NCBI GenBank assembly: GCA_000470535.1
Contig: CBRG010000126.1
Coordinates: forward strand, 1 to 64,000
Direction: 5' to 3'
From: Streptomyces sp. AW19M42
GTDB lineage: Bacteria; Actinomycetota; Actinomycetes; Streptomycetales; Streptomycetaceae
DNA: 64,000 bases
A program made the translations under genes and the position numbers. Below the pieces are notes generated by a model. The model saw only the letters and a list, made by a program, of their open reading frames with translations. It was not told the origin of the DNA and searched no databases. Positions 29,768-44,860 of this stretch are shown in pieces. Numbering within the stretch: position 1 is the stretch's first letter; each line of letters begins with the position of its first letter.

Positions 29768-30835
29768 TCAGCCACCACCGGCCGACAGCACAGAGGCGAG
29801 GTCGTACCGCACCACCTCTTCCAGCTGCTCGTACGTGCAGCTGCCTGGGGCGCGGTCCGGCCGCCACCGGCGGAACTGGGCCGTGTGCCGGAACCGGTCA
29901 CCCTCCATGTGGTCGTAACTCACCTCGCAGACCCGCTCCGGGCGCACCGGCACCCACGACTGGTCCTTCTTGCCGGACCACCGGCTCGGGGTGCCGGGCA
30001 GCCGGGCGTGCTCGTGCGCCTCGGCATCCTGCCAGGCCCCCCAGGGGTGGCCGTTGAAGTCCGTGACCAGCGGTTCAAGTTCAGCGACGAGCTCCGCGCG
30101 GCGCTTCATCGGGAAGGCCGCGCACACTCCCACGTGCTGGAGGACGCCCGCCCCGTCGTGCAGACCGAGCAGCAGCGATCCGACGACCGGGCCGCTCTTG
30201 TGGTGGCGGTAGCCCGCCACCACGCAGTCGGCGGTCCGCTCGTGCTTGATCTTGTACATCACCCGGGTGTCCGGCCGGTAGGGCAGATCGAGCGGTTTGG
30301 CGACGACCCCGTCGAGACCCGCTCCCTCGTACCGGTCGAACCACTCCTGGGCGACGGCCGGATCGGTGGTCGCCGGGGCGAGGTGGACGGGGGCGGAGGC
30401 GGCGGACAGTGCGGCCCGCAGCACCTTTCTCCGGTCCGACTGCCGCGTGCCCAGCAGCGAGTCGTCGCCCACCGCGAGGATGTCGAAGGCGACCAGGGAG
30501 GCCGGGGTCCGCTCGGCCAGCAGCCGCACCCGGGAGTCCGCCGGGTGGATACGCTCGCTGAGCCGCTCGAAGTCGAGCCGGCCCTCGTACGCGATCACGA
30601 TCTCGCCGTCGATCACACAGCGCTCCGGCAGGTTGTCCCGGACCGCCGTGACCAGCTCGGGGAAGTAGCGGGTGAGCGGCTTGCCGGTGCGGCTGCCGAT
30701 CACCACCTCATCGCCGTCCCGGTGCACGATCGCCCGGAAGCCGTCCCATTTGGCCTCGTACTGCATGCCCGGCGGGATCCGGGACACGGACTTGGCGAGC
30801 ATCGGCTTCACGGGCGGCATCACCGGCAGATCCAT
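29768..30835 (-). CDS. ATP-dependent DNA ligase (LigD ligase-domain type)
   Basis: A 355-residue stand-alone ligase. The nucleotidyl motif KWDG is at residues 29-32 (Lys29 takes AMP), followed by IDGEIV (motif III), EGVVAK-like GLDGVVAK (motif IV) and MYKIKHERTADCVV (motif V), then a C-terminal OB fold. It corresponds to the ligase part of LigD, used in non-homologous end joining. The ATG at 30835 is 76 bases from the divergent polymerase-domain gene. No Ku gene is in the window. Confidence 0.92.
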   Translation of the reverse strand: MDLPVMPPVKPMLAKSVSRIPPGMQYEAKWDGFRAIVHRDGDEVVIGSRTGKPLTRYFPELVTAVRDNLPERCVIDGEIVIAYEGRLDFERLSERIHPADSRVRLLAERTPASLVAFDILAVGDDSLLGTRQSDRRKVLRAALSAASAPVHLAPATTDPAVAQEWFDRYEGAGLDGVVAKPLDLPYRPDTRVMYKIKHERTADCVVAGYRHHKSGPVVGSLLLGLHDGAGVLQHVGVCAAFPMKRRAELVAELEPLVTDFNGHPWGAWQDAEAHEHARLPGTPSRWSGKKDQSWVPVRPERVCEVSYDHMEGDRFRHTAQFRRWRPDRAPGSCTYEQLEEVVRYDLASVLSAGGG

Positions 30836-30873
30836 GGATCGATTGTGGACCGTCCAGCGACTGGAGTCTCCCG

Positions 30874-30886
30874 ATATGCGGCATAT
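30874..30886. promoter_or_regulatory. Palindrome between the divergent LigD genes
   Basis: ATATGC and GCATAT form a perfect inverted repeat around a single G, in the middle of the 76-base gap and 13 bases upstream of the polymerase-domain gene's -10 element. An operator acting on both divergent genes would fit this place. Confidence 0.4.
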
Positions 30887-30898
30887 GTGCGTCCGGCC

Positions 30899-30904
30899 TA
30901 CCGT
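30899..30904 (+). promoter_or_regulatory. -10 element of a probable leaderless transcript (LigD polymerase gene)
   Basis: TACCGT ends seven bases before the ATG at 30912, and no ribosome-binding sequence is present. This is the usual geometry of leaderless genes in actinobacteria, where transcription starts at the A of ATG. Confidence 0.5.
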
Positions 30905-30911
30905 GGCCGAC

Positions 30912-31943
30912 ATGGCAGCAGCGGGCAAAGCGGTGGAGCTGGACGCGGGCGGACGGCCCGTCCGGCTGTCCAGTCCGGACAAGGTCTACTTCCCGGAGAA
31001 GGGATACACCAAGAGGGACGTGGCCGAGTACTTCCTGGCCGTGGGACCCGGCATCACCCGCGCTCTGCGCAACCGCCCGACCACCCTCCAGCGCTTCGTG
31101 GACGGGGTCGAGGGCGAGTTCTTCTACCAGAAGCGGGCCCCGAAGAACCTTCCCGAATGGATCCCCACGGCCCGCATCGCCTTCCCCAGCGGCCGCCCGG
31201 CCGACGAGATCTGCCCCACAGAGGTGGCCGCCGTCATCTGGGCCGCCAACCTCGGGACACTCACCTTCCACCCGTGGCCGGTCCGGGGCGCCGACACCGA
31301 CCACCCCGACGAGATGCGCATCGACCTCGACCCCCAGCCCGGCACCGACTACGCCGACGCGGTGCGGGCCGCCCACGAGCTGCGCTCCGTACTGGACGAC
31401 CACGGACTGCGCGGCTGGCCCAAGACCTCCGGCGGCCGGGGCATCCACGTCTTCGTCCCCATCGAGGCCCGCTGGACGTTCACCGAGGTCCGGCGGGCGA
31501 CCATCGCGGCCGGCCGCGAGCTGGAACGCCGGATGCCGGAGCGGGTCACCACCGCCTGGTGGAAGGAGGAGCGCGGCGAGCGGATCTTCGTCGACTTCAA
31601 CCAGACCGCCCGGGACCGCACGATCGCCTCCGCCTACTCCGTACGCCCCCGCCCGCACGCCCCGGTCTCGGCGCCGCTGCGCTGGGAGGAGATCGACGAC
31701 GCGGAGCCGCGCGACTTCGACATCCGGACCATGCCGGTCCGGTACGCGGAAGCGGGCGACGTGCACGCGGACATGGACGAGCACGCCTTCCGGCTCGACC
31801 GGCTGCTGGAGCTCGCGGAGCGCGACGAGAAGGAGCGCGGGCTGGGCGACCTGCCGTACCCGCCGGAGTACCCGAAGATGCCCGGCGAACCCAAGCGGGT
31901 CCAGCCGAGCCGCGCCCGGCACGAGGAGGGCGGCGACGCGTGA
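30912..31943 (+). CDS. LigD-type polymerase/primase domain protein
   Basis: A 343-residue stand-alone polymerase domain of the archaeo-eukaryotic primase fold used in end joining. The catalytic aspartates are Asp138 and Asp140 in MRIDLDPQPG; the third motif is in SGGRGIHVFVP (His of the SGxRGxH type) and ERIFVDFNQTARDRTIASAYSVRP forms the C-terminal part. It can add nucleotides to broken ends before ligation by the divergent ligase. The reading frame continues upstream, but the ATG at 30912 fits the family N-terminus. It overlaps the next gene by four bases. Confidence 0.9.
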   Translation: MAAAGKAVELDAGGRPVRLSSPDKVYFPEKGYTKRDVAEYFLAVGPGITRALRNRPTTLQRFVDGVEGEFFYQKRAPKNLPEWIPTARIAFPSGRPADEICPTEVAAVIWAANLGTLTFHPWPVRGADTDHPDEMRIDLDPQPGTDYADAVRAAHELRSVLDDHGLRGWPKTSGGRGIHVFVPIEARWTFTEVRRATIAAGRELERRMPERVTTAWWKEERGERIFVDFNQTARDRTIASAYSVRPRPHAPVSAPLRWEEIDDAEPRDFDIRTMPVRYAEAGDVHADMDEHAFRLDRLLELAERDEKERGLGDLPYPPEYPKMPGEPKRVQPSRARHEEGGDA

Positions 31944-33058
31944 GCACGCCCGACGAGCCGACCCCGCCGGAATCCGTCCCCGGTCCGCCCGGTCCAGGGC
32001 CGACGCCGCCGCACGGAGCGCACGGCCTGCCACTGACCCGCGGCCAGAAGTGGACGACGTACAAGGAGTCGCCCTACTTCCCGGCGACCGTCCTCCTCCT
32101 CATCCTCGCGGCCGCCGCCGGGCTCTTCGCCGGCTCGTACACGTACGCGATGGCCAATCCGACCCCGCACCGGATCCCGGCCGCCGTGGTCAGCCTCCAG
32201 GAGACGGCCCGCGGCAAGGCGTTCGTCACCGCGATGGACGAGGCGCTCGACGCCTCCCTGGACGTCCACCGGTACGACACCGCCGTCGAGGCGCGCGAGG
32301 CCCTGGAGGAGCAGGAGGTCTTCGCGATCGTGCGGCCCAGCAGGGCAGGGGTGGCCCTCGACGTGGCCGGCGCCTCGGGCGCCGCCGTCGCCCAGTTGCT
32401 CGCGGAGTCCGCGGTGAAGGTGGGGGACAAGCTCGGAGTGCCCGTCTCCGTCACGGATGTCAAACCGCTCCAGAAGGGCGACCCGCGCGGACTCGCGCTC
32501 TTCTACATCTCGCTCGCCGCCGTCATCATCGGCTTCGTCGGCGCCATCCAGCTGAGCGTGCACGCCCGATCGCTGATCCCGCTGGAACGGATCGCGTTCA
32601 CGGTCGCCTACTCGATGCTCGGCGCGTTCTCCATCGCCGCGGTGGTGGACTGGCTGCTGGGCGCCGTCGACCTGCCCTTCGCCGAGTCCTGGGCGATCCT
32701 GGCGCTCACGATGTTCACCTCGGGCATGGTCTTCACCATGTTCAACACCCTGCTGGGGCGCTGGGCGATGATCCCGACCTGGGGAGTGATGGTGCTCCTG
32801 GGGAACCCGTCCTCCGGCGGAGCCGTGTCCTGGCCGCTGCTGCCCTCGCTGCTGGGCCACATCGGACGCTGGCTGCCGCCGGGCGCCTCCGTCAACGCCC
32901 AGCACACCGCGGTCTACTACCAGGGGCACCAGCGGCTCTTCCCGTACCTGGTGCTCGCGGCCTGGTCGCTGGTCTCCTGCACCGTCTTCTGGGTATGGCG
33001 CCACCGGCACCCCGGAGGCCGCGACCACATGCCTCAGCATGCGGCCGCGGCCGGCTGA
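31940..33058 (+). CDS. DUF3533-like multi-pass membrane protein
   Basis: A 372-residue protein. After ~40 Pro-rich cytosolic residues comes a first membrane helix (about 48-68), an extracytoplasmic domain of ~130 residues (AAVVSLQETARGKAFVTAMDEALDASLDV), and about five further helices including FYISLAAVIIGFVGAIQLS. The shape is that of DUF3533/YhgE-Pip ABC-2-like permeases. The GTG overlaps the end of the polymerase gene (GTGA) and GGAGGG stands before it, so the two are co-transcribed, which is odd because nothing links it to DNA repair. Confidence 0.75.
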   Translation: MSTPDEPTPPESVPGPPGPGPTPPHGAHGLPLTRGQKWTTYKESPYFPATVLLLILAAAAGLFAGSYTYAMANPTPHRIPAAVVSLQETARGKAFVTAMDEALDASLDVHRYDTAVEAREALEEQEVFAIVRPSRAGVALDVAGASGAAVAQLLAESAVKVGDKLGVPVSVTDVKPLQKGDPRGLALFYISLAAVIIGFVGAIQLSVHARSLIPLERIAFTVAYSMLGAFSIAAVVDWLLGAVDLPFAESWAILALTMFTSGMVFTMFNTLLGRWAMIPTWGVMVLLGNPSSGGAVSWPLLPSLLGHIGRWLPPGASVNAQHTAVYYQGHQRLFPYLVLAAWSLVSCTVFWVWRHRHPGGRDHMPQHAAAAG

Positions 33059-33078: not shown

Positions 33079-35322
33079 TTAGAGCTCCTGGATCCGGATG
33101 TCCCGGTAGGAGATCACGTCCGAGGTGCTGTGGACCTGGAGGCCGATGTAGCCGGAGGCGTACCGCCGGCCGTCGGTGCCCGGGTCGTCGTCCCGCGGCG
33201 GCTCGAAGGACTGACCGCCGTTGTTGTCGAACTCATTGAGCAGGACACCGTTGCGGTAGACCGCGTAGTGCTGGTCCACCACCCGGATCTCGTAGTCGTT
33301 CCAGGTGCCCTTGGGGGTGACCCCGGCGCCGCCGAGACCGATCCGGTCGAATCCGTAGACGGAACCGGTCTTGTACATGTCGCCGTCCGGCCGGTCGTTG
33401 ATCTGGATCTCATGGCCGTACTTGATGGCGACCCACTCCGGATCCGGCTCCTCCGGGTTGTCGTGGACGTTCGGGAACCGCACGAACACACCGCCGTTGG
33501 CGTTGCCCGTGCCCGGGGCGTCGTCCCGGAACTGGAGCTTCAGCGAGAAGTCCCCGTACTGCCGGCCCGGGAACCACAGCATGCCCATGCCGTCCACCGT
33601 GGTGGAGCTGTTGAGCGAGCCGTCCTCCTCGTTCAGCGAGAACTGTCCGCCCCCGACCTGCTGCCACTTGGCGAACGAGGCCGCCGTGCCGTCGAAGAGC
33701 TTGCGGTAGCCCTGGTCCTGGCCCGGCTCGCCGATCCCCGACTGCTTGGCCGCCTTGTAGATCTTCCTGTGCTCGCGGGCGTCGACCACCCCGGCGGTGA
33801 GCAGCTGGTCGAGAACCCTGTCGACGTGCTTGAGGAACAGCGCGTGCGACGACCAGTCCTTCTCGTCCTCGATCAGCTCGTTGATCGTGCAGCGGTTGCC
33901 GGTGATCCGGTTGGGGACCCCGGTGTCGACGGTGCCCACGATGACGGTGAGCCGTTCGTCGAACTCCGGGCAGTTCGGCGCCGGTACGCCGCCGCTCTGC
34001 GCGACGGTGAACGACGTCTGCTTCGCCTCCGAGGTGTTGCCCGCCTTGTCCGTGGCCCGGTGGGCGACGGTGTGGTAGCCGACGCGGTCGACGATGACCG
34101 TGGTGGTGTAGGCGAGGTAGGGGCCGCCGTCGAGGGAGTACTCGACCTTGTCCACCCCGGTGTCGGCGTCGGTCGCGGTGACCGTCACCTTGGCGCTGGT
34201 GAGGTAGGCGCCGTCGGAGTTCTTGTCGCCCGCGACCTTCGCGGAGGTCTCCGGCGGCGTGGTGTCCTGCGTCGGCGGCTCGACGACGGTGAACTCCACC
34301 GCTTGCTCGGCGGCGGCGTTGCCCGCCTTGTCGGTCGCGCGGTAACGGATCTTCTGCGCGCCGGTCTCGTGCACCATCACGGGACCGGTGTACGGCTGCC
34401 AGGCGCCGTCCGCACCGACCGCGTACTCCATGGTGTTGACGCCGGACCCGGTGTCGGAGGCGGTCACGGTGACCGTCGCCATGCCCAGGTACTGCCCCTG
34501 GTCGTCCTTCTCGCCGGAGACGGTCGCGGAGGTCTCCGGCGGTGTGGTGTCGTCCGTCGGCGGGGCGGCGACGGTGAACTCCGCCGTCTTCTCGGCGGCG
34601 GCGTTGCCCGCCTTGTCGGTCGCGCGGTAGCGGATGGCGTGCGCGCCGACCTCGTCCACGACGACGGGCACGGTGTACGGCTGCCAGGCGCCGTCGGCGC
34701 CGACCGCGAACTCGACGGTGCCGACGCCCGAGCCCTCGTCGGTGGCCGCGACGGTGACCGTCGCGGAGCCGATGTAGGCGCCGTCGGCGTTCTTGTCGCC
34801 GTCGACCTTGACCGAGGTCTCGGGTGCGGTGGTGTCGTCCTCACCGCCGCCCCCGTCGGTCACGGTCAGGATGCCCTGCATCGCCTCGTGCCCCGGCATC
34901 GTGCAGTGGTAGAAGTACCGGCCGGGGGTGAGAGTGACCTCCGCGGTCTGCTTGCCGCCCTGGTCGTCGCCGGGGTTGGCCAGCAGGTTCAGCGGGACGT
35001 CGTTGTTGAACTCCGGGTCCGAGACGCTGAAGGTCAGTGTGTGCGGCATCCCGCTGGTGTTCCCGGTCCCCTCACTGTTCTCGAAGACGATGGTCGCCTT
35101 GCCGGCCACCGCCGTCTTCGGTGCGGACAGGTAGTGGTCGATGGGGTTGCCGGCCGTCCAGGTGAGCACCTGGTCGGCCGCCGCCGCGCTGGCCGGGGCG
35201 ACGGTACGCCCGTAGGCCGCCGTCGAGGTCAGCCCCAGCACCATCAGGAACGACCCCAGCAGGGCGAGCCACAGCCGGGCGGGCCGTGACCGCCTTCGGA
35301 AGAAGATCGAACGGTGTCTCAC
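33079..35322 (-). CDS. Exported cupredoxin / Ig-like repeat / DUF1080 fusion protein
   Basis: A 747-residue exported protein. The order is: signal/anchor (about 1-48); plastocyanin-like domain (50-155) with type-1 copper ligands His94, Cys140, His145 and Met148; three Ig-like repeats (163-251, 257-346, 353-440), each starting with TT(A/P)PETS and ending in RATDKAGN; a helical spacer (450-530); and a DUF1080 (3-keto-disaccharide hydrolase-like) beta-sandwich (540-747). The start is the GTG at 35322 overlapping the upstream stop (GTGA); an earlier in-frame start would lie inside the upstream gene. Copper binding and a sugar-binding or sugar-cleaving end suggest a role with the neighbouring PQQ dehydrogenase. 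Confidence 0.88.
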   Translation of the reverse strand: MRHRSIFFRRRSRPARLWLALLGSFLMVLGLTSTAAYGRTVAPASAAAADQVLTWTAGNPIDHYLSAPKTAVAGKATIVFENSEGTGNTSGMPHTLTFSVSDPEFNNDVPLNLLANPGDDQGGKQTAEVTLTPGRYFYHCTMPGHEAMQGILTVTDGGGGEDDTTAPETSVKVDGDKNADGAYIGSATVTVAATDEGSGVGTVEFAVGADGAWQPYTVPVVVDEVGAHAIRYRATDKAGNAAAEKTAEFTVAAPPTDDTTPPETSATVSGEKDDQGQYLGMATVTVTASDTGSGVNTMEYAVGADGAWQPYTGPVMVHETGAQKIRYRATDKAGNAAAEQAVEFTVVEPPTQDTTPPETSAKVAGDKNSDGAYLTSAKVTVTATDADTGVDKVEYSLDGGPYLAYTTTVIVDRVGYHTVAHRATDKAGNTSEAKQTSFTVAQSGGVPAPNCPEFDERLTVIVGTVDTGVPNRITGNRCTINELIEDEKDWSSHALFLKHVDRVLDQLLTAGVVDAREHRKIYKAAKQSGIGEPGQDQGYRKLFDGTAASFAKWQQVGGGQFSLNEEDGSLNSSTTVDGMGMLWFPGRQYGDFSLKLQFRDDAPGTGNANGGVFVRFPNVHDNPEEPDPEWVAIKYGHEIQINDRPDGDMYKTGSVYGFDRIGLGGAGVTPKGTWNDYEIRVVDQHYAVYRNGVLLNEFDNNGGQSFEPPRDDDPGTDGRRYASGYIGLQVHSTSDVISYRDIRIQEL

Positions 35323-37808
35323 TGCACTGCCGCCTTCCTGGCCAGATCCTTGACGGCCGGGGTCGGTGCGCCGCCCTTGTACGTCACGCGCCACAGCGCG
35401 GACTTGGAGTCGGAGGTGAAGAAGCCGCGCCCGTAGTCCAGGACGTACAGCGAGCCGTCCGGGGCGAACTTCCAGTCCATCAGGTTGCGGATGCCGTCCG
35501 CGCCGACCGGGATGATCTCCTTGAGGGACTCGGCGTGGGTGGGCAGTCCGCCCTTGCCGACCGTCTTCGGGTCGGTGAGCACGGCGTGCCGCGGCTGGGT
35601 GTCGTCGTAGAAGTCACCGACGAACCACTTGCCGTCCCAGTAGGACGGCCACTTGTCGGCGCCGGCCTTCTCGTCGTACCGGTAGACCGGGCCGTTCATC
35701 GTGGCCTGGCCGCCACCCTTGAGCCAGGGCAGCAGCTCCTTCTGGTCCTCCACCTTGTAGCTCGGGATGCCGTTCTCGTCGCGCGGGTAGTCGACGCCAC
35801 CGCCCTGCGGTGAGTACCAGATGGTGTTGGACGTGATCGGCGGCAGGTTCACCAGACCGTCGTTGTTCGGCGACTCGTTCTTGGGGTGGTCGCAGTCGTA
35901 CCAGCCGAGCGGCTTGCTCGGATCGGGCAGATTGCGGTCCCGGTAGGGCTGCTTGTTGCCCATGCAGTACGGCCAGCCGTGGTTGCCCGCCCTGGTGATC
36001 GCGGCGAACGTGTCGTACTTGGCCGGACCCCAGGTGGTGCTCGGCTCGCCCGCGTCGGGGCCGACCCAGCCCGCGTACAGCGTGTCGGTCGACTTGTCGA
36101 CGGCGATCCGGGCCGGGTTGCGCACGCCCATCACGTAGATCTCGCCGCGGGTCTTGCCCCCGCCCTCGTCCGACTCCTGGCCGGTGAAGAGATTGCCCTC
36201 GGGCAGGGTGTAGGTGCCGTCGTCCTCGGGGTGGATCCGCAGGATCTTGCCGTTGAGGTTGTTCGTGTTGCCCGCGGTGCGCCGGGCATCGGCGAACGAG
36301 ATGCCCTTGTAGTTCGGCTCCGGGTTGTTGCCCGAGTAACCGTCGCTGAACTGCGAGGAGTTGTTGTCACCGACCGCGACGTACAGGTTGCCCTTGGAGT
36401 CCCAGGCCATACCGCCGCCCGCGTGGCAGCAGCTGTGGATCTGGACCGGCCAGTGCAGCAGCACCTTCTCCGAGGAGAGGTCCAGCTTGTTCGTGGCCAG
36501 GTCCATGGTGAACCTGGAGACCTGACGGACCGCCATCTGCTTGTCGCGGTCGATCTTGTCGTGGGGTGTGTAGTGCAGGTACACCCAGCCGTTCTTCTCG
36601 AAGTCCGGGTCGAGCTCGATGCCGAGCAGTCCCTCCTCGACCTTGACCAGTTCGTCGCCGCCGCCCTTGTTGCCGAAGATCGTCAGCTCTCCGGCGAGGG
36701 TGACCTTCTTGGTCTTCGGGTCGTAGACGTGGATCTGGCCCATACCCTTGCCGACGTTCGGGTCCTTCCAGTCGGTGACGACCGGCACGCTGCTGTCGGC
36801 GCCGCCGCGGCCGATGTACAGCACCCGTCCGTCGGGGGCCGTCACCAGTCCGTGCGGTTCGCCTATCTGGTCGCTCTCACCGGGCTGGTTGGGCTGGGTG
36901 ACCCGCTCCGCCTTGTAGTTGGAGGTGATCGTCGCCTTGCAGTCGGCCTGCGAGATCCGGGTCGTCCAGTCGAGCGCGCCGCGCAGGTGGTCGCGGAAGT
37001 CGGCCTCCGCGAAGCTGTCGACCGTGCCGCCCATCGCGGTGTAGAAGGACCGGCCGCCGTCGTAGTCACGGCACCAGGAGACCGGGTGGTCCCAGCCGTT
37101 GGCGCTCGCCCCCGGCTTGTACGTGATCTCCCGGACGCGGGCCACGGTGTGCACGTCGCCGGACGGGTTCTCCTTCCAGTTCAGCCACTTGTCGGGCCGC
37201 TTCCACTCCAGCGGAAGGTTCTTGGTGGCCGGGTGCTGCCGGTCCCCGATCTCCACCGTCGCACGCTGGGCGGCGGTGGGGCTGTCGGCCGCTGGACGGG
37301 CACCGACCAGCCCGGTGAACCAGTCGGAGTACGGCTCGGTGCGCGCCGCGTCGTGGATGCCGAGGAAGCCGCCGCCGGCCTCCATGTACGCCTCAAGACC
37401 GGCCTCCTGCTCCGGATCCAGGACGTCCCCGCCACCCGTCAGGAAGACGACGGCGTTGAACTTGCCGAGCTGCTTGCCGTTGGTGAAGACGGCAGGGTCG
37501 TCACTGGCCACAGTCTTGAAGCGGCCCGCCTCCGGACCGGTGAGCCCGATCCTCTCGATCGCCGCGATGCCGGCGTCGACCGTCGGGGACTCCTCGGACG
37601 CGGAGGCGTGGAAGACCAGCACCTTCACGTTCGTGCCGCCGGGCGGCGTTGGCAGGGACAACGTTGTCGCCATGGACTCGTGCGGTCCGGGATACGGCCT
37701 GGCACTGGCGGCATTGCCGCCGAGCAGGGATGCGGTCAGTGCGCCGGCCGCTACGGCCGCCGCAAGTCCACGTCGCGATCTGGACCTGTGATGTGGTGTG
37801 CGCTGCAT
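35319..37808 (-). CDS. Exported ThuA - PQQ-dependent sugar dehydrogenase fusion
   Basis: An 829-residue secreted protein. The N-terminal signal (SRSRRGLAAAVAAGAL, possibly twin-arginine) ends near residue 36. A ThuA-like amidotransferase-fold domain follows (about 60-290: VLVFHASASEESP, FLTGGGDVLDPEQEAGLEAYMEAGGGFLGIHDA). Then comes a soluble glucose/sorbosone dehydrogenase beta-propeller (about 300-800) with GEPHGLVTAPDGRVLYIGRGG, CCHAGGGMAWDSKGNLYVAVGDN and a conserved ARIAVDKST. PQQ sugar dehydrogenases oxidise sugars outside the cell and pass electrons to an acceptor; the downstream cupredoxin is a candidate. The ATG at 37808 is preferred to a GTG at 37820. Confidence 0.88.
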   Translation of the reverse strand: MQRTPHHRSRSRRGLAAAVAAGALTASLLGGNAASARPYPGPHESMATTLSLPTPPGGTNVKVLVFHASASEESPTVDAGIAAIERIGLTGPEAGRFKTVASDDPAVFTNGKQLGKFNAVVFLTGGGDVLDPEQEAGLEAYMEAGGGFLGIHDAARTEPYSDWFTGLVGARPAADSPTAAQRATVEIGDRQHPATKNLPLEWKRPDKWLNWKENPSGDVHTVARVREITYKPGASANGWDHPVSWCRDYDGGRSFYTAMGGTVDSFAEADFRDHLRGALDWTTRISQADCKATITSNYKAERVTQPNQPGESDQIGEPHGLVTAPDGRVLYIGRGGADSSVPVVTDWKDPNVGKGMGQIHVYDPKTKKVTLAGELTIFGNKGGGDELVKVEEGLLGIELDPDFEKNGWVYLHYTPHDKIDRDKQMAVRQVSRFTMDLATNKLDLSSEKVLLHWPVQIHSCCHAGGGMAWDSKGNLYVAVGDNNSSQFSDGYSGNNPEPNYKGISFADARRTAGNTNNLNGKILRIHPEDDGTYTLPEGNLFTGQESDEGGGKTRGEIYVMGVRNPARIAVDKSTDTLYAGWVGPDAGEPSTTWGPAKYDTFAAITRAGNHGWPYCMGNKQPYRDRNLPDPSKPLGWYDCDHPKNESPNNDGLVNLPPITSNTIWYSPQGGGVDYPRDENGIPSYKVEDQKELLPWLKGGGQATMNGPVYRYDEKAGADKWPSYWDGKWFVGDFYDDTQPRHAVLTDPKTVGKGGLPTHAESLKEIIPVGADGIRNLMDWKFAPDGSLYVLDYGRGFFTSDSKSALWRVTYKGGAPTPAVKDLARKAAVQ

Positions 37809-38071
37809 GTGGTCACCCACCCCTCGTTGGTCACTTCAACAGCGCATGAAGCTAGACCTCTTTTCGCGACTCGCCAATAGCTATGGCAGCAATCGCACGA
37901 ACTTTGTCCTTAGTGTGGATAAACGAAGATCCCCGGGCTACGGTATGGCCCGTCCCCGAGGCCCACCCGTGCCCGGCGGCGTTGACCGCCATGACCTGCG
38001 TACCTCTGTGCCGCGTGCCGTAGTTGCCTTGGGTTTCTCCGCAACACCCGTCCGAAAGTGGGGAGTTCGAC

Positions 38072-39142
38072 ATGGATCGACGTAGCTTCAACCGGCGGAT
38101 TCTGATGGGCGGCGGGGTGGCGGCGGCGACCGGGGTGACATCGTTGTCCCTCGGTGCGATCGAGGCCACCTCCGCCGAGAACCCGCCCCGCACGGCACCG
38201 GCGGGAGGAGTGGTCCGTCACCTCAGGATGTACGCGGAGAAGCTGCCGGACGGGCAGATGGGGTACGGCTTCGAGAAGGGCAAGGCATCGATCCCCGGCC
38301 CGCTCATCGAGATCAACGAGGGCGACACCCTGCACATCGAGTTCGAGAACACGATGGACGTGGCGGCCAGCCTCCACGCGCACGGCGTCGACTACGACAT
38401 CGCGAGCGACGGCACGCGGATGAACAAGAGCATCGTCGAACCGGGCGAGACCCGTACCTACACCTGGCGCACCCATGCCCCGGGCCGGCGGGAGGACGGC
38501 ACCTGGCAGGCGGGCAGCGCGGGTTACTGGCACTACCACGACCACGTCGTCGGCACCGATCACGGCACGGGCGGCATCCGCAAGGGGCTGTACGGTCCGG
38601 TGATCGTCCGGCGCAAGGGCGACATCCTGCCGGACAAGACGATCACGATCGTCTTCAACGACATGCTGATCAACAACAAGCCCGCCGACAAGAGCCCCGA
38701 CTTCGAGACCACGGTGGGGGACCGGCTCGAAGTCGTCATGATCACGCACGGCGAGTACTACCACACGTTCCATGTCCACGGTCACCGCTGGGCGGACAAC
38801 CGCACGGGCCTGCTCACCGGCCCGGACGATCCGACCCGGGTCATCGACACGAAGATCGTCGGACCGGCGGACTCGTTCGGCTTCCAGGTCATCGCCGGTG
38901 AACACGTGGGCGCGGGCGCGTGGATGTACCACTGCCATGTGCAGAGTCACTCCGACATGGGCATGGCCGGGATGCTGCTGGTCGCCAAGGCCGACGGGAC
39001 GGTGCCGGGGCACGAGGCGCACTCGATGTCCTCGCACGGCGCGAAGACTCCGGATGCGAAGTCACCGGACTCGAAGAGCCCGGATGCCAAGACGTCGGGC
39101 GCCAGGACATCGGAGAAGGCCGCGTCGCACGACAGCCACTGA
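38072..39142 (+). CDS. Two-domain small laccase (SLAC type multicopper oxidase)
   Basis: A 356-residue secreted laccase close to the S. coelicolor small laccase. A twin-arginine signal (RRSFNRR) opens the protein. Copper ligands are at His102 and His104, His154/156, HTFHVHGH from 231, and [12 protein letters not shown] with Cys288, His293 and Met298; these T1 positions agree with published SLAC numbering. The active enzyme is a trimer that oxidises phenols with oxygen. GGGGAG lies six bases before the ATG. The C-terminal 45 residues are Lys/Asp/Ser repeats (SPDxKSPDAK). It is divergent from the ThuA/PQQ operon. Confidence 0.95.
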
Positions 39143-39190: not shown

Positions 39191-39919
39191 TCAGGACAGG
39201 GCGGTCGGCCTGCGTGGCGGCGGGACGGCCCGGAGCAGCTTCCACAGCGGACGGGAGCCGGACGCCCAGCTTTCGAGGGTGTGCCGGTCGACGACGTGCA
39301 GCCGCTGCTGTTCGGCGAAGACCACGGCCGGTGCGGTCACCCTGCCGTTCGTCACGATCACCGCGATGTCGGCGCCGTGCACCGGGCGGGCGGTGCCGTT
39401 GAGGACCTGGAGATCCGGTGTTCCCACCGCGGAGCCGGCCAGGCCGTCGCGCCGGTGTTTGCACTGGATCACCCAGCGGCGCCCGTAGGGGTCGGTGGCC
39501 TTCACATCGGCGCCCAGGTCCCCGCCGCCACCGACACGGAGCGCGTCCTGGCAGCCGTCACGGCGCATCAGATCCCGTACGGCGTCCTCGAACCGGGTGT
39601 GGTGCAGGGCGTCCAGCTGGGACAGCTCGTACCGCAGGCCCTGCGTGCGGACCGCTTCCCACCGCGCGTTCTGCCGCCGCTGGTGGAGCAGGCCGCCGCC
39701 GGTCAGCAGCGCGATCGCGCCGAGGGCCAGCAGGACCCACCAGTGGGCCAGCAGCCAGTTGACCAGGGTCACCACCACGACGGCGGCCAGGACCACGGCC
39801 ACGAGGCGGCCGATCAGCCGGTCGTCCGCGCGCCGGCTCCGCCTCCCGGGCCTGCGGGCGCGGCGGCGTACCGGCGCGCGCCCGGTCGTCGCCCGGCCTC
39901 TGCGCGCCCGGGGGCTCAC
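39191..39919 (-). CDS. Membrane-anchored Mrr-type restriction endonuclease
   Basis: A 242-residue protein: Arg-rich start, two membrane helices (about 38-76; LIGRLVAVVLAAVVVVTLVNW and VLLALGAIALLTGG), then a PD-(D/E)xK nuclease of the Mrr_cat type with FEDAVRDLMRRDGC, GGDLGADVKATDPYGRRWVIQCKHR (catalytic Asp and QxK) and a C-terminal strand-helix. Such proteins cut DNA, often methylated DNA, and here would sit at the membrane. The exact start (GTG 39919 or 39922) is unclear and the frame is open well upstream. Confidence 0.8.
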   Translation of the reverse strand: MSPRARRGRATTGRAPVRRRARRPGRRSRRADDRLIGRLVAVVLAAVVVVTLVNWLLAHWWVLLALGAIALLTGGGLLHQRRQNARWEAVRTQGLRYELSQLDALHHTRFEDAVRDLMRRDGCQDALRVGGGGDLGADVKATDPYGRRWVIQCKHRRDGLAGSAVGTPDLQVLNGTARPVHGADIAVIVTNGRVTAPAVVFAEQQRLHVVDRHTLESWASGSRPLWKLLRAVPPPRRPTALS

Positions 39920-40097
39920 CACTCTGACCGCGTGATCAACAGCAACTGCCGGACCTCCCACCAGACACGGCCGTCTCCAGGAGAGCAGCGGACGCCGGTC
40001 CGAGCCCCCCTCTGGTTTAGCCGGGTCCAGCCGGTGCCGTGACCGGGTCGCCGGTGAATGGCAGTAAAACGATGCCCTGGCCGAATCGCCGCAGTCG

Positions 40098-42347
40098 TCA
40101 GGAACCGTCCCCCGCGTCCACGCCTGCCGCCAGCTCCCTTTCCGCCGCCGCCCCCGACCTCGCCCCCGACTCCGCGGCGAGGCGCCGCTGTTCCTCCTCG
40201 ACGATGCGGCGGGCCAGCGAGCCGTCCGACACGTCCACCGCGTCCGGCGTCGTCTCCGCGACATCGCTGCGCCGTGCGTATGCGTCGAACAGCCGTTCCT
40301 TGCGGGCCAGGATGTCCAGCATGCGTTCGTCGACGCTGTCCGCCACGAGCAGCCGGTGCACCTGGACCGTGCGTATCTGGCCCATCCGGTGGGCGCGGGC
40401 CACCGCCTGGTGCTCCATCGTCGGCTTGATCTGCGGCTCGCAGAGGATGACGACCGAAGCGGCCTGCATGTTGAGCCCGATCCCGCCGGCCTGGATCTGG
40501 CTCAGCAGGACCGCATGGCCGTCGGCCGCCGTGAAGGCGTCGATCAGCTCCTGACGCCGGGCGGCCGGCAGGCTCCCGGACAGGGGGCCGAACACCTCCT
40601 CGCCCAGGGCCCGGCGGACCGTCTCCAGCACCTCACGGAAGTACGAGAACACCACGACCTTCAGCCCGTTGCCCGCCGCCTCCGCGACCAGCTCGCGCAG
40701 CCGGTTCAGCTTCGCGGAGGTGGCCGGGTCGGCGTACGCGGCCCGGCGCATCCGCATGAAGTGCCCGGCGGCCACCGCCTGGTGGTAGGCCAGCAGGTCG
40801 GCGGCGCTGAACTCCTCCCACTCGTCGACCTGCACCAGCGCCGGGAGCTCGGTGAGGACATCGTGCTGGTTGCGGCGCAGGTAGGCGGGGGCGACGGCCC
40901 GGCGGAACGCCTGGGATCCGGCGGCGCCGTGGCTGGTGCTGACCAACGGCGCGAGCTCGGGCTGGAGCTGACCGACGAGGCTGCGGAACTCCGCCACCCG
41001 GTTCTCCATCGGCGTGCCGGTGAGGAACAGCACCCGCTCGGTCCGCTGCGACCAGCCGGCCACCGCCCGGGAGCGCCGGGTGGCGGGATTCTTGACGTAG
41101 TGGGCCTCGTCGACCACGAGCATGCCGGGCCGTACGCCGCAGTCGGCCGCTACGGGCAGGGTGTGCAGGGCGTCGTACGTGGTCAGGGCGACCCCGCCGC
41201 CCTCGCGCCACTCCGCGAACGCGCCCTGCCGGTCCGGACCGTGCACCGGCAGCACCCGCAGCGTCGAGCGGGACCGGACCTCCCGGGTCCAGTTGATCAG
41301 CACGCTCGCCGGGCAGACGACCAGGAAGTGGGTCTCGCCCCCGGCCGCGAGATGGGCCAGCGCGGCGATGGCCTGGACCGTCTTGCCGAGCCCCATCTCG
41401 TCGCCGAGGATCACCCGCTTCTGCGCGAGCGCGAAACGGGCGCCGAAGGACTGGTAGCCGCGCAACGACACCCGCAGCCGGGCGTCGTCCAGCCGCAGGC
41501 CGCGCACCCGGTCGGCGATCCCGGACGGCAGGAACCCCTCGGCCGCGTCCCGGTCCGGTCCGGTGCCGGACATCTCGGCGAGCAGGCTGTAGTACTCGGC
41601 GGAGCGCACCTCGAAGTCGACCCACGCCGCGATCGCGGAGTCCGGATCGCGCAGCAGGTCGGCCGAGACCTGCCCGAACAGCAGCGGGAGTTCACGCTCC
41701 CGGGCATCCGCCATCACCGCGCGGGCGGCGGCCACAGCGGCCAGTGCCCGCGTCCGGGCCGGCCGCCGGGTGAAGACCATCCGCAGCCGCCCTCTCGCGG
41801 GCGCCGCCGTGGCCAGCAGCGGATCCAGCCGCTCGGCCAGCCCGCGGGCGCCGTCCACCGCCCGCCGGACGTCCGGCCCTGCCTCGACCAGCCGGTACAA
41901 CGCCGTGACCAGGGCGGTCGTGGCGTCGTCCGGGGATTCCACGGCTATCCGCACCGTGACCGTGTCCCGCACCGCGTGGGCGATCTGGCCCGCTGCGGCG
42001 AGCGCCTGGTCGGCGGTCTGCGCACCGACGCCGGGGATCTGGCGGAGCTCGTAGCGGCTGGCCCCGTGCACCTGCCCGACGGTGGTGAAACCGGCCTGCT
42101 CGATCGCGCCGATCCGCAGCCGGCCCTCCGTGACGTCCTTGAGCCGGGACGCCGGGATGGCCGACAGCTCGTCGCGGACGAGCGCGTCGAGCAGGGGGTC
42201 CAGGGCGGTGCGGACGGCATCGACGGCGCGGCCGTGATCGGCCAGCACCGCGCGTGCCGCGCCCAGCAGCTCCTCGGCCCGCGCGAGCAGCTCCCTGGCT
42301 GCCCGCCCGGTCGTCGCCCCGCCCTCAGTGAACCCGGCCTCAGTCAT
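40098..42347 (-). CDS. SNF2-family helicase-like ATPase with helix-hairpin-helix
   Basis: A 749-residue protein. The N-terminal 300 residues include a DNA-binding helix-hairpin-helix (LRQIPGVGAQTADQALAAAGQIAHAV, about 93-118). The SNF2 ATPase follows: motif I GDEMGLGKTVQA (about residue 330), motif II VVDEAHYVKN, motif III LTGTPMEN, and in the second RecA lobe VVFSYFREVLETVR and SQIQAGGIGLNMQAASVV plus the QAVARAHRMGQ motif VI. It should translocate along DNA and remodel protein-DNA complexes. The ATG at 42347 has AGAGGA upstream. No nuclease domain is fused. Confidence 0.9.
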   Translation of the reverse strand: MTEAGFTEGGATTGRAARELLARAEELLGAARAVLADHGRAVDAVRTALDPLLDALVRDELSAIPASRLKDVTEGRLRIGAIEQAGFTTVGQVHGASRYELRQIPGVGAQTADQALAAAGQIAHAVRDTVTVRIAVESPDDATTALVTALYRLVEAGPDVRRAVDGARGLAERLDPLLATAAPARGRLRMVFTRRPARTRALAAVAAARAVMADARERELPLLFGQVSADLLRDPDSAIAAWVDFEVRSAEYYSLLAEMSGTGPDRDAAEGFLPSGIADRVRGLRLDDARLRVSLRGYQSFGARFALAQKRVILGDEMGLGKTVQAIAALAHLAAGGETHFLVVCPASVLINWTREVRSRSTLRVLPVHGPDRQGAFAEWREGGGVALTTYDALHTLPVAADCGVRPGMLVVDEAHYVKNPATRRSRAVAGWSQRTERVLFLTGTPMENRVAEFRSLVGQLQPELAPLVSTSHGAAGSQAFRRAVAPAYLRRNQHDVLTELPALVQVDEWEEFSAADLLAYHQAVAAGHFMRMRRAAYADPATSAKLNRLRELVAEAAGNGLKVVVFSYFREVLETVRRALGEEVFGPLSGSLPAARRQELIDAFTAADGHAVLLSQIQAGGIGLNMQAASVVILCEPQIKPTMEHQAVARAHRMGQIRTVQVHRLLVADSVDERMLDILARKERLFDAYARRSDVAETTPDAVDVSDGSLARRIVEEEQRRLAAESGARSGAAAERELAAGVDAGDGS

Positions 42348-42568
42348 GTACGTCCTCTGTCCCCGCAGCCTCACCGCCGCTCCGTCCGGCAGCCGGCCGG
42401 AGCGATTCGTATCGTCCCATGCGCTGCTGACAGGGGGCCGACGGACTGCGGGTGTCAGTGCCCGGCGCAGGACTCGGCCACATCATGAGAAACCCTGTAT
42501 GTACGGGAGCGGGAGTGGTTGATGCATCGTTGATCAGTCGTTTATCGCGGCAGGGCACTGTGTGCGGC

Positions 42569-43885: not shown

Positions 43886-44860
43886 TCACGCCTGGGCGCG
43901 GGCCGCCATCCGCTCCTTGCGGGCGGCCAGCTTCGCGTCGAACTTCGACGCCTCACTGTCCAGCCCGGTCATGTACAGGCCGAGCTCCTCCTGCGCCTTC
44001 AGGCCCTCCGGGCCCAGTCCGTCGATGTCCAGCACCCTCAGGTAGCGCAGCACCGGCTGGATGACGTCGTCGTGGTGGATGCGCATGTTGTAGATCTCGC
44101 CGATCGCCATCTGCGCGGCGGCCCGCTCGAAGCCGGGCATGCCGTGGCCGGGCATCCGGAAGTTGACGACGACATCGCGCACGGACTGCATGGTCAGGTC
44201 CGGTGCGAGCTCGAAGGCCGCGCCCAGGAGGTTGCGGTAGAACACCATGTGCAGGTTCTCGTCGGTGGCGATCCGGGCCAGCATCCGGTCGCAGACCGGG
44301 TCGCCCGACTGGTGGCCGGTGTTCCGGTGGGAGACCCGGGTGGCCAGCTCCTGGAAGGCGACATAGGCCACGGAGTGCAGCATCGAGTGGCGGTTGTCGG
44401 ACTCGAAGCCCTCCGCCATGTGTGTCATCCGGAACTGCTCCAGCTTGTCCGGGTCGACCGCGCGCGACGTGAGCAGGTAGTCGCGCATCACGATGCCGTG
44501 CCGGCCTTCCTCGGCCGTCCAGCGGTGCACCCAGGTGCCCCAGGCGCCGTCGCGGCCGAAGAGCGAGGCGATCTCGTGGTGGTAGCTGGGGAGGTTGTCC
44601 TCGGTCAGCAGGTTCACGACCAGGGCGATCTTGCCGATGTCGGTGACCTTGGACTGCTCGGACTCCCAGGCCTGGCCGTCCTCGAAGATGCCGGGGAAGT
44701 TCCGGCCGTCGGAGAACGGCACGTACTCGTGCGGCATCCAGTCCTTGGCGACCTTGAGATGGCGGTTGAGTTCCTTCTCCACCACCTCTTCCAGCGCGTA
44801 AAGCAGTTGCGCGTCGGTCCACGCCTGTGTACTGCCGAGGTGGGGAGAGGTGATCGTCAC
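43886..44860 (-). CDS. Acyl-ACP desaturase (soluble, di-iron)
   Basis: A 324-residue soluble desaturase that puts a double bond into saturated acyl chains using a di-iron centre. The ligand motifs are in order: an early Glu (VVEKELNRHL), TEDNLPSYHHE, the EExxH-type TAEEGRHG, and the second set ATDENLHMVFY (DExxH). The C-terminal GLGPEGLKAQEELGLYM matches actinobacterial DesA-type proteins. It is read as the first gene after a striking operator, and is followed by a terminator, so it is monocistronic. It would adjust membrane fluidity. Confidence 0.93.
   Translation of the reverse strand: MTITSPHLGSTQAWTDAQLLYALEEVVEKELNRHLKVAKDWMPHEYVPFSDGRNFPGIFEDGQAWESEQSKVTDIGKIALVVNLLTEDNLPSYHHEIASLFGRDGAWGTWVHRWTAEEGRHGIVMRDYLLTSRAVDPDKLEQFRMTHMAEGFESDNRHSMLHSVAYVAFQELATRVSHRNTGHQSGDPVCDRMLARIATDENLHMVFYRNLLGAAFELAPDLTMQSVRDVVVNFRMPGHGMPGFERAAAQMAIGEIYNMRIHHDDVIQPVLRYLRVLDIDGLGPEGLKAQEELGLYMTGLDSEASKFDAKLAARKERMAARAQA

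Follow-up and report, generated by a model that had tools for sequence, protein, structure and literature searches.

The 64,000-nt window analysed here, the whole stretch taken from contig CBRG010000126.1 of Streptomyces sp. AW19M42, contains a three-gene module: a small laccase of the SLAC type (P0003); a protein in which a ThuA domain is fused to a GSDH-family beta-propeller (P0002, hereafter the dehydrogenase); and a protein that begins with a type-1 copper (T1, cupredoxin) domain and ends in DUF1080 (P0001). The features are listed in Table 1, and the G+C content of the window is 67-74 % in 2-kb steps. The GTG start of P0001 lies in the stop codon of P0002 (...GTGA), a 4-nt overlap that bears out the translational coupling given in the initial annotation. 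The open frame of P0001 reaches further upstream, to 35394. P0002 and P0003 are divergent, so that both genes of the coupled pair face the laccase as that annotation had noted, and the region between the two start codons presumably holds promoters of both directions. All three genes probably encode secreted proteins.

Table 1. Features of the module in the window
Feature	Position	Strand	Basis
Three-gene module	33079-39142		open reading frames and domain matches
P0001, cupredoxin-Ig3-DUF1080 protein, 747 aa, GTG start	33079..35322	-	domain matches, sequence
DUF1080 / 3-keto-disaccharide hydrolase domain, residues 538-745	33088..33711	-	PF06439, 112.2 bits (cut-off 26.8)
Unnamed domain of ~85 aa (HEL)	33721..33984	-	lies between Ig repeats and DUF1080
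Three OmpL47/Ig-like repeats	34000..34839	-	NF047446, 252 bits (cut-off 40)
T1 (cupredoxin) domain, residues 50-156; ligands H94, C140, H145, M148	34855..35175	-	profile, alignments
P0002, ThuA-GSDH protein, 833 aa	35319..37820	-	domain matches, orthologues
GSDH beta-propeller-family domain, residues 296-825	35346..36935	-	PF07995, 90.4 bits (cut-off 25)
ThuA domain, residues 66-286	36963..37625	-	PF06283, 197.3 bits (cut-off 33.4)
Divergent intergenic region between dehydrogenase and laccase start codons	37821..38071	.	251 nt, sequence
P0003, SLAC-type two-domain small laccase	38072..39142	+	similarity to 3CG8; Tat-like leader MDRRSFNRR

Judged by its sequence, P0003 is a plain SLAC member. 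It matches the Streptomyces coelicolor enzyme (3CG8) with an E-value of 8e-174 spanning residues 1-332 of 3CG8, and 50 distinct PDB sequences, among them engineered variants, reach E 4e-113 or better against it. The start used is ATG 38072, with TTG 38024 as an upstream alternative, and the leader appears by eye to be of the twin-arginine type. Among the 106 copies compared, the copper motif YHCHVQxHxxxGM is present in all and the (Y/W)HYHDH-type motif in 104. An H[AV]HG pattern occurs in 94 and the narrow form HTFH[VI]HGH in 60; the S. coelicolor enzyme reads HTFHMHGH at this site.

P0001 consists, in order, of: a leader; the T1 domain; three immunoglobulin-like (Ig-like) repeats of the OmpL47 type; the unnamed HEL domain; and DUF1080. 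The copper ligands and the NF047446 and PF06439 matches agree with the composition first assigned to it, from which only HEL was missing. At the thresholds used, the copper domain has no Pfam or NCBIfam match. A profile of 16 relatives nevertheless matches auracyanin, plastocyanin, rusticyanin and azurin at E-values from 7e-6 to 9e-4 (auracyanin A, 7e-6; plastocyanin, 8e-6). The four T1 ligands are intact in 105/105 readable copies (of 107; those of L101 and L145 are unreadable) and in all 16 rows of an alignment drawn from four families.

HEL, which sits at chain junctions in this module, is a candidate for a new domain of secreted proteins. It has no Pfam match in the scan of P0001 or in the copy of one relative, and its model has no PDB fold match at E 0.001. 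The best model is a beta hairpin with a helical hairpin at a predicted local distance difference test score (pLDDT) of 86; three of the five models score 57-62. In relatives, HEL follows the dehydrogenase as well as the cupredoxin-Ig chain. In the class set, 50 of 296 genomes have matches, with up to 18 per genome in family f19 (at most 18 candidates scored). Since many other proteins carry it, HEL was rejected as a marker of the module.

P0002 is probably secreted, judging by eye from its leader. The PF07995 match covers only profile positions 44-225 of 332. Residues H466, R567 and N568 align with the His and Arg-Asn of Acinetobacter glucose dehydrogenase, presumably the active-site histidine and residues of the pyrroloquinoline quinone (PQQ) site, and are invariant in a 12-row alignment. 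An invariant vicinal Cys-Cys pair (C464-C465) stands beside the catalytic-position H466 (residues 464-466, 36423-36431, minus strand); adjacent cysteines over PQQ occur in other quinoprotein dehydrogenases.

The distribution of the module was assessed in 150 genomes of the window's family (Streptomycetaceae), searched with each module part, and in an overlapping set of 296 genomes of the class; together the two sets hold 51 module carriers. Within the family, a P0002 orthologue (at least 60 % identity) is found in 28/150 genomes, and SLAC and the cupredoxin domain are each found in the identical 28. None of the three parts was detected in the remaining 122. A GSDH or ThuA match of some kind occurs in 71/150 genomes, and the listed identities below the orthologues are at most 46 %. 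The window's own genus includes 25 carriers and 13 non-carriers.

The same pattern holds across the class. SLAC occurs in 42/296 genomes, spread over eight genera in four families, and exactly these 42 also have the cupredoxin. A profile of the dehydrogenase clade, scored on at most five candidates per genome, gives 41 matches of at least 908 bits, all within the 42 SLAC genomes; the next match scores 325 bits. With the same scoring, no member of the clade was found in the 254 genomes without SLAC. The one exception, G165, has SLAC and the cupredoxin and lacks the dehydrogenase clade even when all 19 of its candidates are scored. Fisher values for co-occurrence are 5e-31 and 5e-52; these are naive, ignore shared ancestry and are indicative only.

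Gene order was compared in 107 loci, 27 from the genome set and 80 named, with 103 distinct dehydrogenase sequences. The 80 best named loci are from Streptomyces, one of them filed as [Kitasatospora] papulosa. Because gene calls misplaced the SLAC strand (L234, L238) and the cupredoxin end (L226), layouts rest on domain matches and search coordinates. The window layout is present in 105/107 loci, the exceptions being L067 (genome G034), which is rearranged, and L147. The cupredoxin and DUF1080 share a single open frame in 102/107; the remaining five are L067, two loci cut by the contig end (L082, L124) and two with a broken or masked frame (L101, L145). In 88/106 complete loci, the final four bases of the dehydrogenase gene include a possible overlapping start (GTGA 81, ATGA 6, TTGA 1).

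Outside the family, 20 loci from three families show other arrangements of the same parts. In 12/20, SLAC is followed on one strand by ThuA-GSDH-HEL-DUF1080, with the cupredoxin-Ig protein next where the contig continues. DUF1080 is thus fused to ThuA-GSDH in a chain of ~1360 aa, as it is also carried on the dehydrogenase in G034, and the cupredoxin-Ig protein is separate; in the window layout, DUF1080 is on the cupredoxin protein. In 5/20 loci SLAC is divergent from the dehydrogenase and cupredoxin genes. In the remaining 3/20 (L233, L234 and L237, family f17) it is divergent from the cupredoxin gene and a dehydrogenase is missing from the neighbourhood; L233 starts at the edge of its contig, and the L234 and L237 genomes each contain another locus that includes the dehydrogenase. 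Search coordinates in G255, G283, G292, G310 and G326 give the order SLAC, dehydrogenase, cupredoxin on one strand. In total, loci with all three genes show four gene orders. An insert of very roughly 70-150 aa interrupts the ThuA match in L067 and in 16/16 ThuA-GSDH chains called in the other families; by eye, that of L067 looks like a carbohydrate-binding module.

An inherited or chance neighbourhood was considered and rejected on the basis of loci of ~20 kb, in which distant neighbours could escape detection: none of the window's flanking genes is found close to the module in more than 15/27 loci, all three module parts are present in 27/27, and other families have the genes in different orders. 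By gene, the flanking counts in these 27 loci are: LigD polymerase, 15; LigD ligase, 13; a WhiB-like gene, 13; the gene at 43886-44860, 9; SNF2, 3; and a membrane protein at ~31946-33058, 3. This search also took in five loci without the module, and the WhiB and membrane-protein labels were assigned by eye. The initial annotation had staked its proposal on the three genes being conserved together; they are, across four families and in almost constant linkage. The module parts almost certainly form one functional unit.

What this unit does can be addressed from its parts. The arrangement favoured here, put as a whole at a little under an even chance, would be an extracellular chain in which electrons pass from the dehydrogenase via the cupredoxin and SLAC to oxygen, and to which the cleavage of a glycoside is coupled; the flow and direction of electrons, the 3-keto chemistry and the substrate are all proposed. 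The chain would involve: oxidation of a sugar ring hydroxyl by the GSDH propeller outside the cell, with a 3-keto sugar as the product proposed from the DUF1080 and ThuA partners; acceptance of electrons one at a time by the cupredoxin domain, which would pass them to the SLAC T1 copper; reduction of oxygen to water by SLAC; and cleavage or rearrangement of the keto-glycoside by the DUF1080 domain, perhaps with ThuA. PQQ, if used, would be scavenged in most hosts. The electron route is the simplest account because the cupredoxin accompanies SLAC in every carrier genome of both sets, even without the dehydrogenase. A passage of electrons from sugar to laccase through the copper domain had been suggested at the outset; the conserved linkage and the intact T1 site lend it partial support, its reliance on PQQ does not hold up as well, and the 3-keto implication of DUF1080 and ThuA had been left out.

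The keto step is proposed from relatives. DUF1080 proteins act as 3-keto-glycoside hydrolases after a secreted sugar dehydrogenase, as characterised for Bacteroides BT2157 and proposed for Caulobacter; another DUF1080 protein, THTE_1561, is instead an endo-xanthanase/lichenase (PMC9007349). In the module, the dehydrogenase adjoining DUF1080 is of the GSDH rather than the LacABC type. The window's own genome also encodes GSDH, ThuA and DUF1080 in one 1276-aa frame (L070; G000:C316, 2602-6432), with a PKD-like stretch between them by eye. This single chain shares all three domains with the module, although its GSDH is only 44 % identical, and no SLAC or cupredoxin match was found on its 8.1-kb contig. 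The recurring GSDH-ThuA-DUF1080 fusion supports a common chemistry in which a sugar would be oxidised and its keto product then processed. DUF1080 and ThuA probably imply 3-keto sugar processing, making the module glycoside-cleaving and not only sugar-oxidising.

In a study of electrode-bound SLAC, a basic patch (Lys204, Arg170) lies above the T1 copper, 6-8 Å below the surface, and accepts electrons from an acidic surface (PMC9692349). The cupredoxins are acidic in 20/20 loci, with net charges of -4 to -19, and SLAC R170 is conserved in 105/106 Streptomycetaceae copies. Position 203 is Lys or Arg in 94/106 of these copies, and outside the family position 171 is Lys or Arg in 21/23. This charge pattern allows docking of the cupredoxin on SLAC, short of demonstrating it.

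Several observations weigh against the proposed chain, among them the cofactor evidence and the lignin phenotype described with the alternatives below. At position 204 the window has Pro, and Lys is present in only 3/106 copies. Outside the family, position 170 is Arg in 5/23 and position 203 is Lys or Arg in 11/23. All three partners have an acidic net charge, without complementarity. Type B two-domain oxidases, to which SLAC belongs, are reported to have the T1 site in a tunnel at the trimer centre, as shown on a model of a Cellvibrio enzyme (PMC13151041); such a position might impede the docking of a protein and is hard to square with the 6-8 Å of PMC9692349. Pairing also has gaps. In L147 (Streptomyces sp. 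SM11), the dehydrogenase and cupredoxin genes are present, and no SLAC match lies in the 1.5 kb to the contig end. Of the 52 class-set SLAC matches, two have neither partner beside them: no cupredoxin or dehydrogenase-clade match was found on the contig of G176:C3, and SLAC alone was found in the first 19.9 kb of G165:C15. Because of these two, the co-occurrence rule holds for genomes and not for every SLAC gene.

The strongest alternative, still unlikely, is a shared substrate. SLAC would oxidise plant phenolics and lignin on its own, the dehydrogenase and DUF1080 would act on the carbohydrate attached to them, and clustering would reflect joint use of lignocellulose with no electron transfer between proteins. 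As a variant, the dehydrogenase would re-reduce quinones and phenoxy radicals made by SLAC; fungal sugar dehydrogenases are known to do this. Consistent with a role in phenol oxidation, SLAC oxidised 12/23 phenolic substrates tested (PMC3918160), and a SLAC-negative (SilA) mutant of Streptomyces ipomoeae solubilises ~5-fold less lignin (PMC5675413). The mutant points to a phenol-oxidising role for SLAC as well. Electron transfer from sugar-oxidising fungal flavoenzymes to lytic polysaccharide monooxygenases via quinones has been described (PMC13353379), and a tunnel-facing T1 site suits small molecules (PMC13151041). Left unexplained by the shared substrate is the dedicated cupredoxin, which occurs with SLAC in the same 42/296 genomes and is kept even at loci without a dehydrogenase (L233, L234, L237).

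Less likely again is a reading in which the propeller is something other than a PQQ dehydrogenase: its cofactor would be lost or changed, it would bind sugar or use a redox centre near the Cys-Cys-His, and the redox part would be the cupredoxin and SLAC only. The initial annotation had described P0002 as a fused ThuA-PQQ sugar dehydrogenase. The fusion stands on its PF06283 and PF07995 matches; PQQ is doubtful. The motif in the solved GSDH relatives compared is RNPQ, whose Gln is presumably a PQQ contact, and in 12/12 alignment rows this Gln is replaced (RNPA, RNPS, RNIS, RNIA or RNVA). The C-terminal third of the P0002 GSDH has no sequence alignment to solved relatives at the PQQ-contact region, where Lys and Arg of sugar dehydrogenases presumably make further contacts. 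An AlphaFold model of P0002 (34 homologues, 79-85 % identical) was too poor, at pLDDT 48, and was not used. Hedgehog-interacting protein matches the same GSDH profile (E 0.0009), so redox activity does not follow from the fold.

The biosynthetic genes point the same way. pqqC is present in 7/51 module genomes. pqqE is over the cut-off in 29/150 family genomes, including 7/28 module genomes, the same seven as for pqqC; with 22/122 in genomes without the module, it is not significantly commoner with it (Fisher p 0.43). In the 23 module genomes of other families pqqE was not found, in a search that gave no match at all and for which the family search is the positive control. Neither gene was found in the window's genome, and both are absent from 44/51 hosts, in which, for lack of them, PQQ would need an outside source or another cofactor would be used. 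Mycofactocin would be another candidate carrier. Set against this are the invariant His and Arg-Asn aligned with Acinetobacter glucose dehydrogenase, the seven hosts that carry both genes, and the known scavenging of PQQ by non-producers such as E. coli. The PQQ label is weak, and 'GSDH family, cofactor open' describes P0002 better.

A copper-handling role, in which the cupredoxin and SLAC at the cell surface would store or buffer the metal or render it harmless and the sugar enzymes would be passengers, is highly improbable: SLAC weakly resembles copper-resistance oxidases (TIGR01480, 56.8 bits, cut-off 479) and metal homeostasis has been suggested as a possible role of another two-domain oxidase (PMC13151041), but the dehydrogenase clade is in 41/42 SLAC genomes and was found in 0/254 others, and no copper transporter or chaperone domain is among the scanned window genes, the other neighbourhoods not having been screened for copper genes.

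Two further arrangements adjoin the module in the window. At 29768-31943, a LigD-type ATP ligase (minus strand) and a LigD primase-polymerase (plus strand) have opposite-strand open frames whose putative starts overlap. On the other side, a protein with an Mrr-type restriction endonuclease domain (39191-40264, minus strand) lies beside an SNF2 helicase gene (40098-42374, minus strand); the open frames overlap, the Mrr start being putative.

SLAC is among the most thoroughly studied laccases of bacteria, yet the physiological roles of two-domain oxidases are described as poorly understood (PMC13151041). That SLAC is nearly always encoded beside a cupredoxin and a sugar-oxidising enzyme suggests a natural role as the oxygen-consuming end of an extracellular sugar-oxidising chain, and the almost constant association of SLAC with a single type of cupredoxin and a single clade of dehydrogenase provides a concrete candidate for its natural electron donor. 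Generalised, and held more tentatively than the chain itself, actinobacterial small laccases may be terminal oxidases of an extracellular copper chain and not primarily lignin enzymes. Their donor would be a dedicated cupredoxin, supplied with electrons by a propeller dehydrogenase that yields keto sugars, with the glycoside cleaved at the end and, in most hosts, scavenged PQQ or a different, undescribed cofactor. If true, this would join laccase research to 3-keto-glycoside pathways and offer a natural protein donor for SLAC-based electrodes. Among the papers listed in literature searches that excluded most subscription journals (in several of them the best 20-30), none links SLAC with a ThuA, GSDH or cupredoxin gene; in a survey of bacterial laccase genes, gene-context terms matched one unrelated passage (PMC3192119).

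Compared with known systems, P0003 is alike in sequence to the SLAC small laccases (S. coelicolor SCO6712, 3CG8; superfamily K, type B two-domain multicopper oxidases). These appear in the literature consulted as stand-alone laccases, whereas SLAC here has two near-constant genomic partners. P0002 shares its family, the catalytic-position His and the Arg-Asn with soluble quinoprotein glucose dehydrogenase (Acinetobacter, 1C9U) and the GSDH proteins 3A9G, 2G8S and 2ISM. It differs in the replaced Gln, the unalignable C-terminal third, the fused ThuA and hosts that mostly lack PQQ genes. The periplasmic 3-ketoglycoside pathway (Caulobacter LacABC with DUF1080; Bacteroides BT2157) likewise has a DUF1080 protein and, beside it, a sugar dehydrogenase, both of them secreted. 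The Caulobacter dehydrogenase is of the LacABC type, however, and that of the module is a GSDH propeller fused to ThuA, with cupredoxin and laccase as the presumed electron route. Fungal AA12 pyranose dehydrogenase, which carries a fused cytochrome domain, resembles the module in combining a GSDH-type propeller with a dedicated electron-transfer domain; there the heme domain is part of the same chain, whereas in the module the copper domain is in the neighbouring one.

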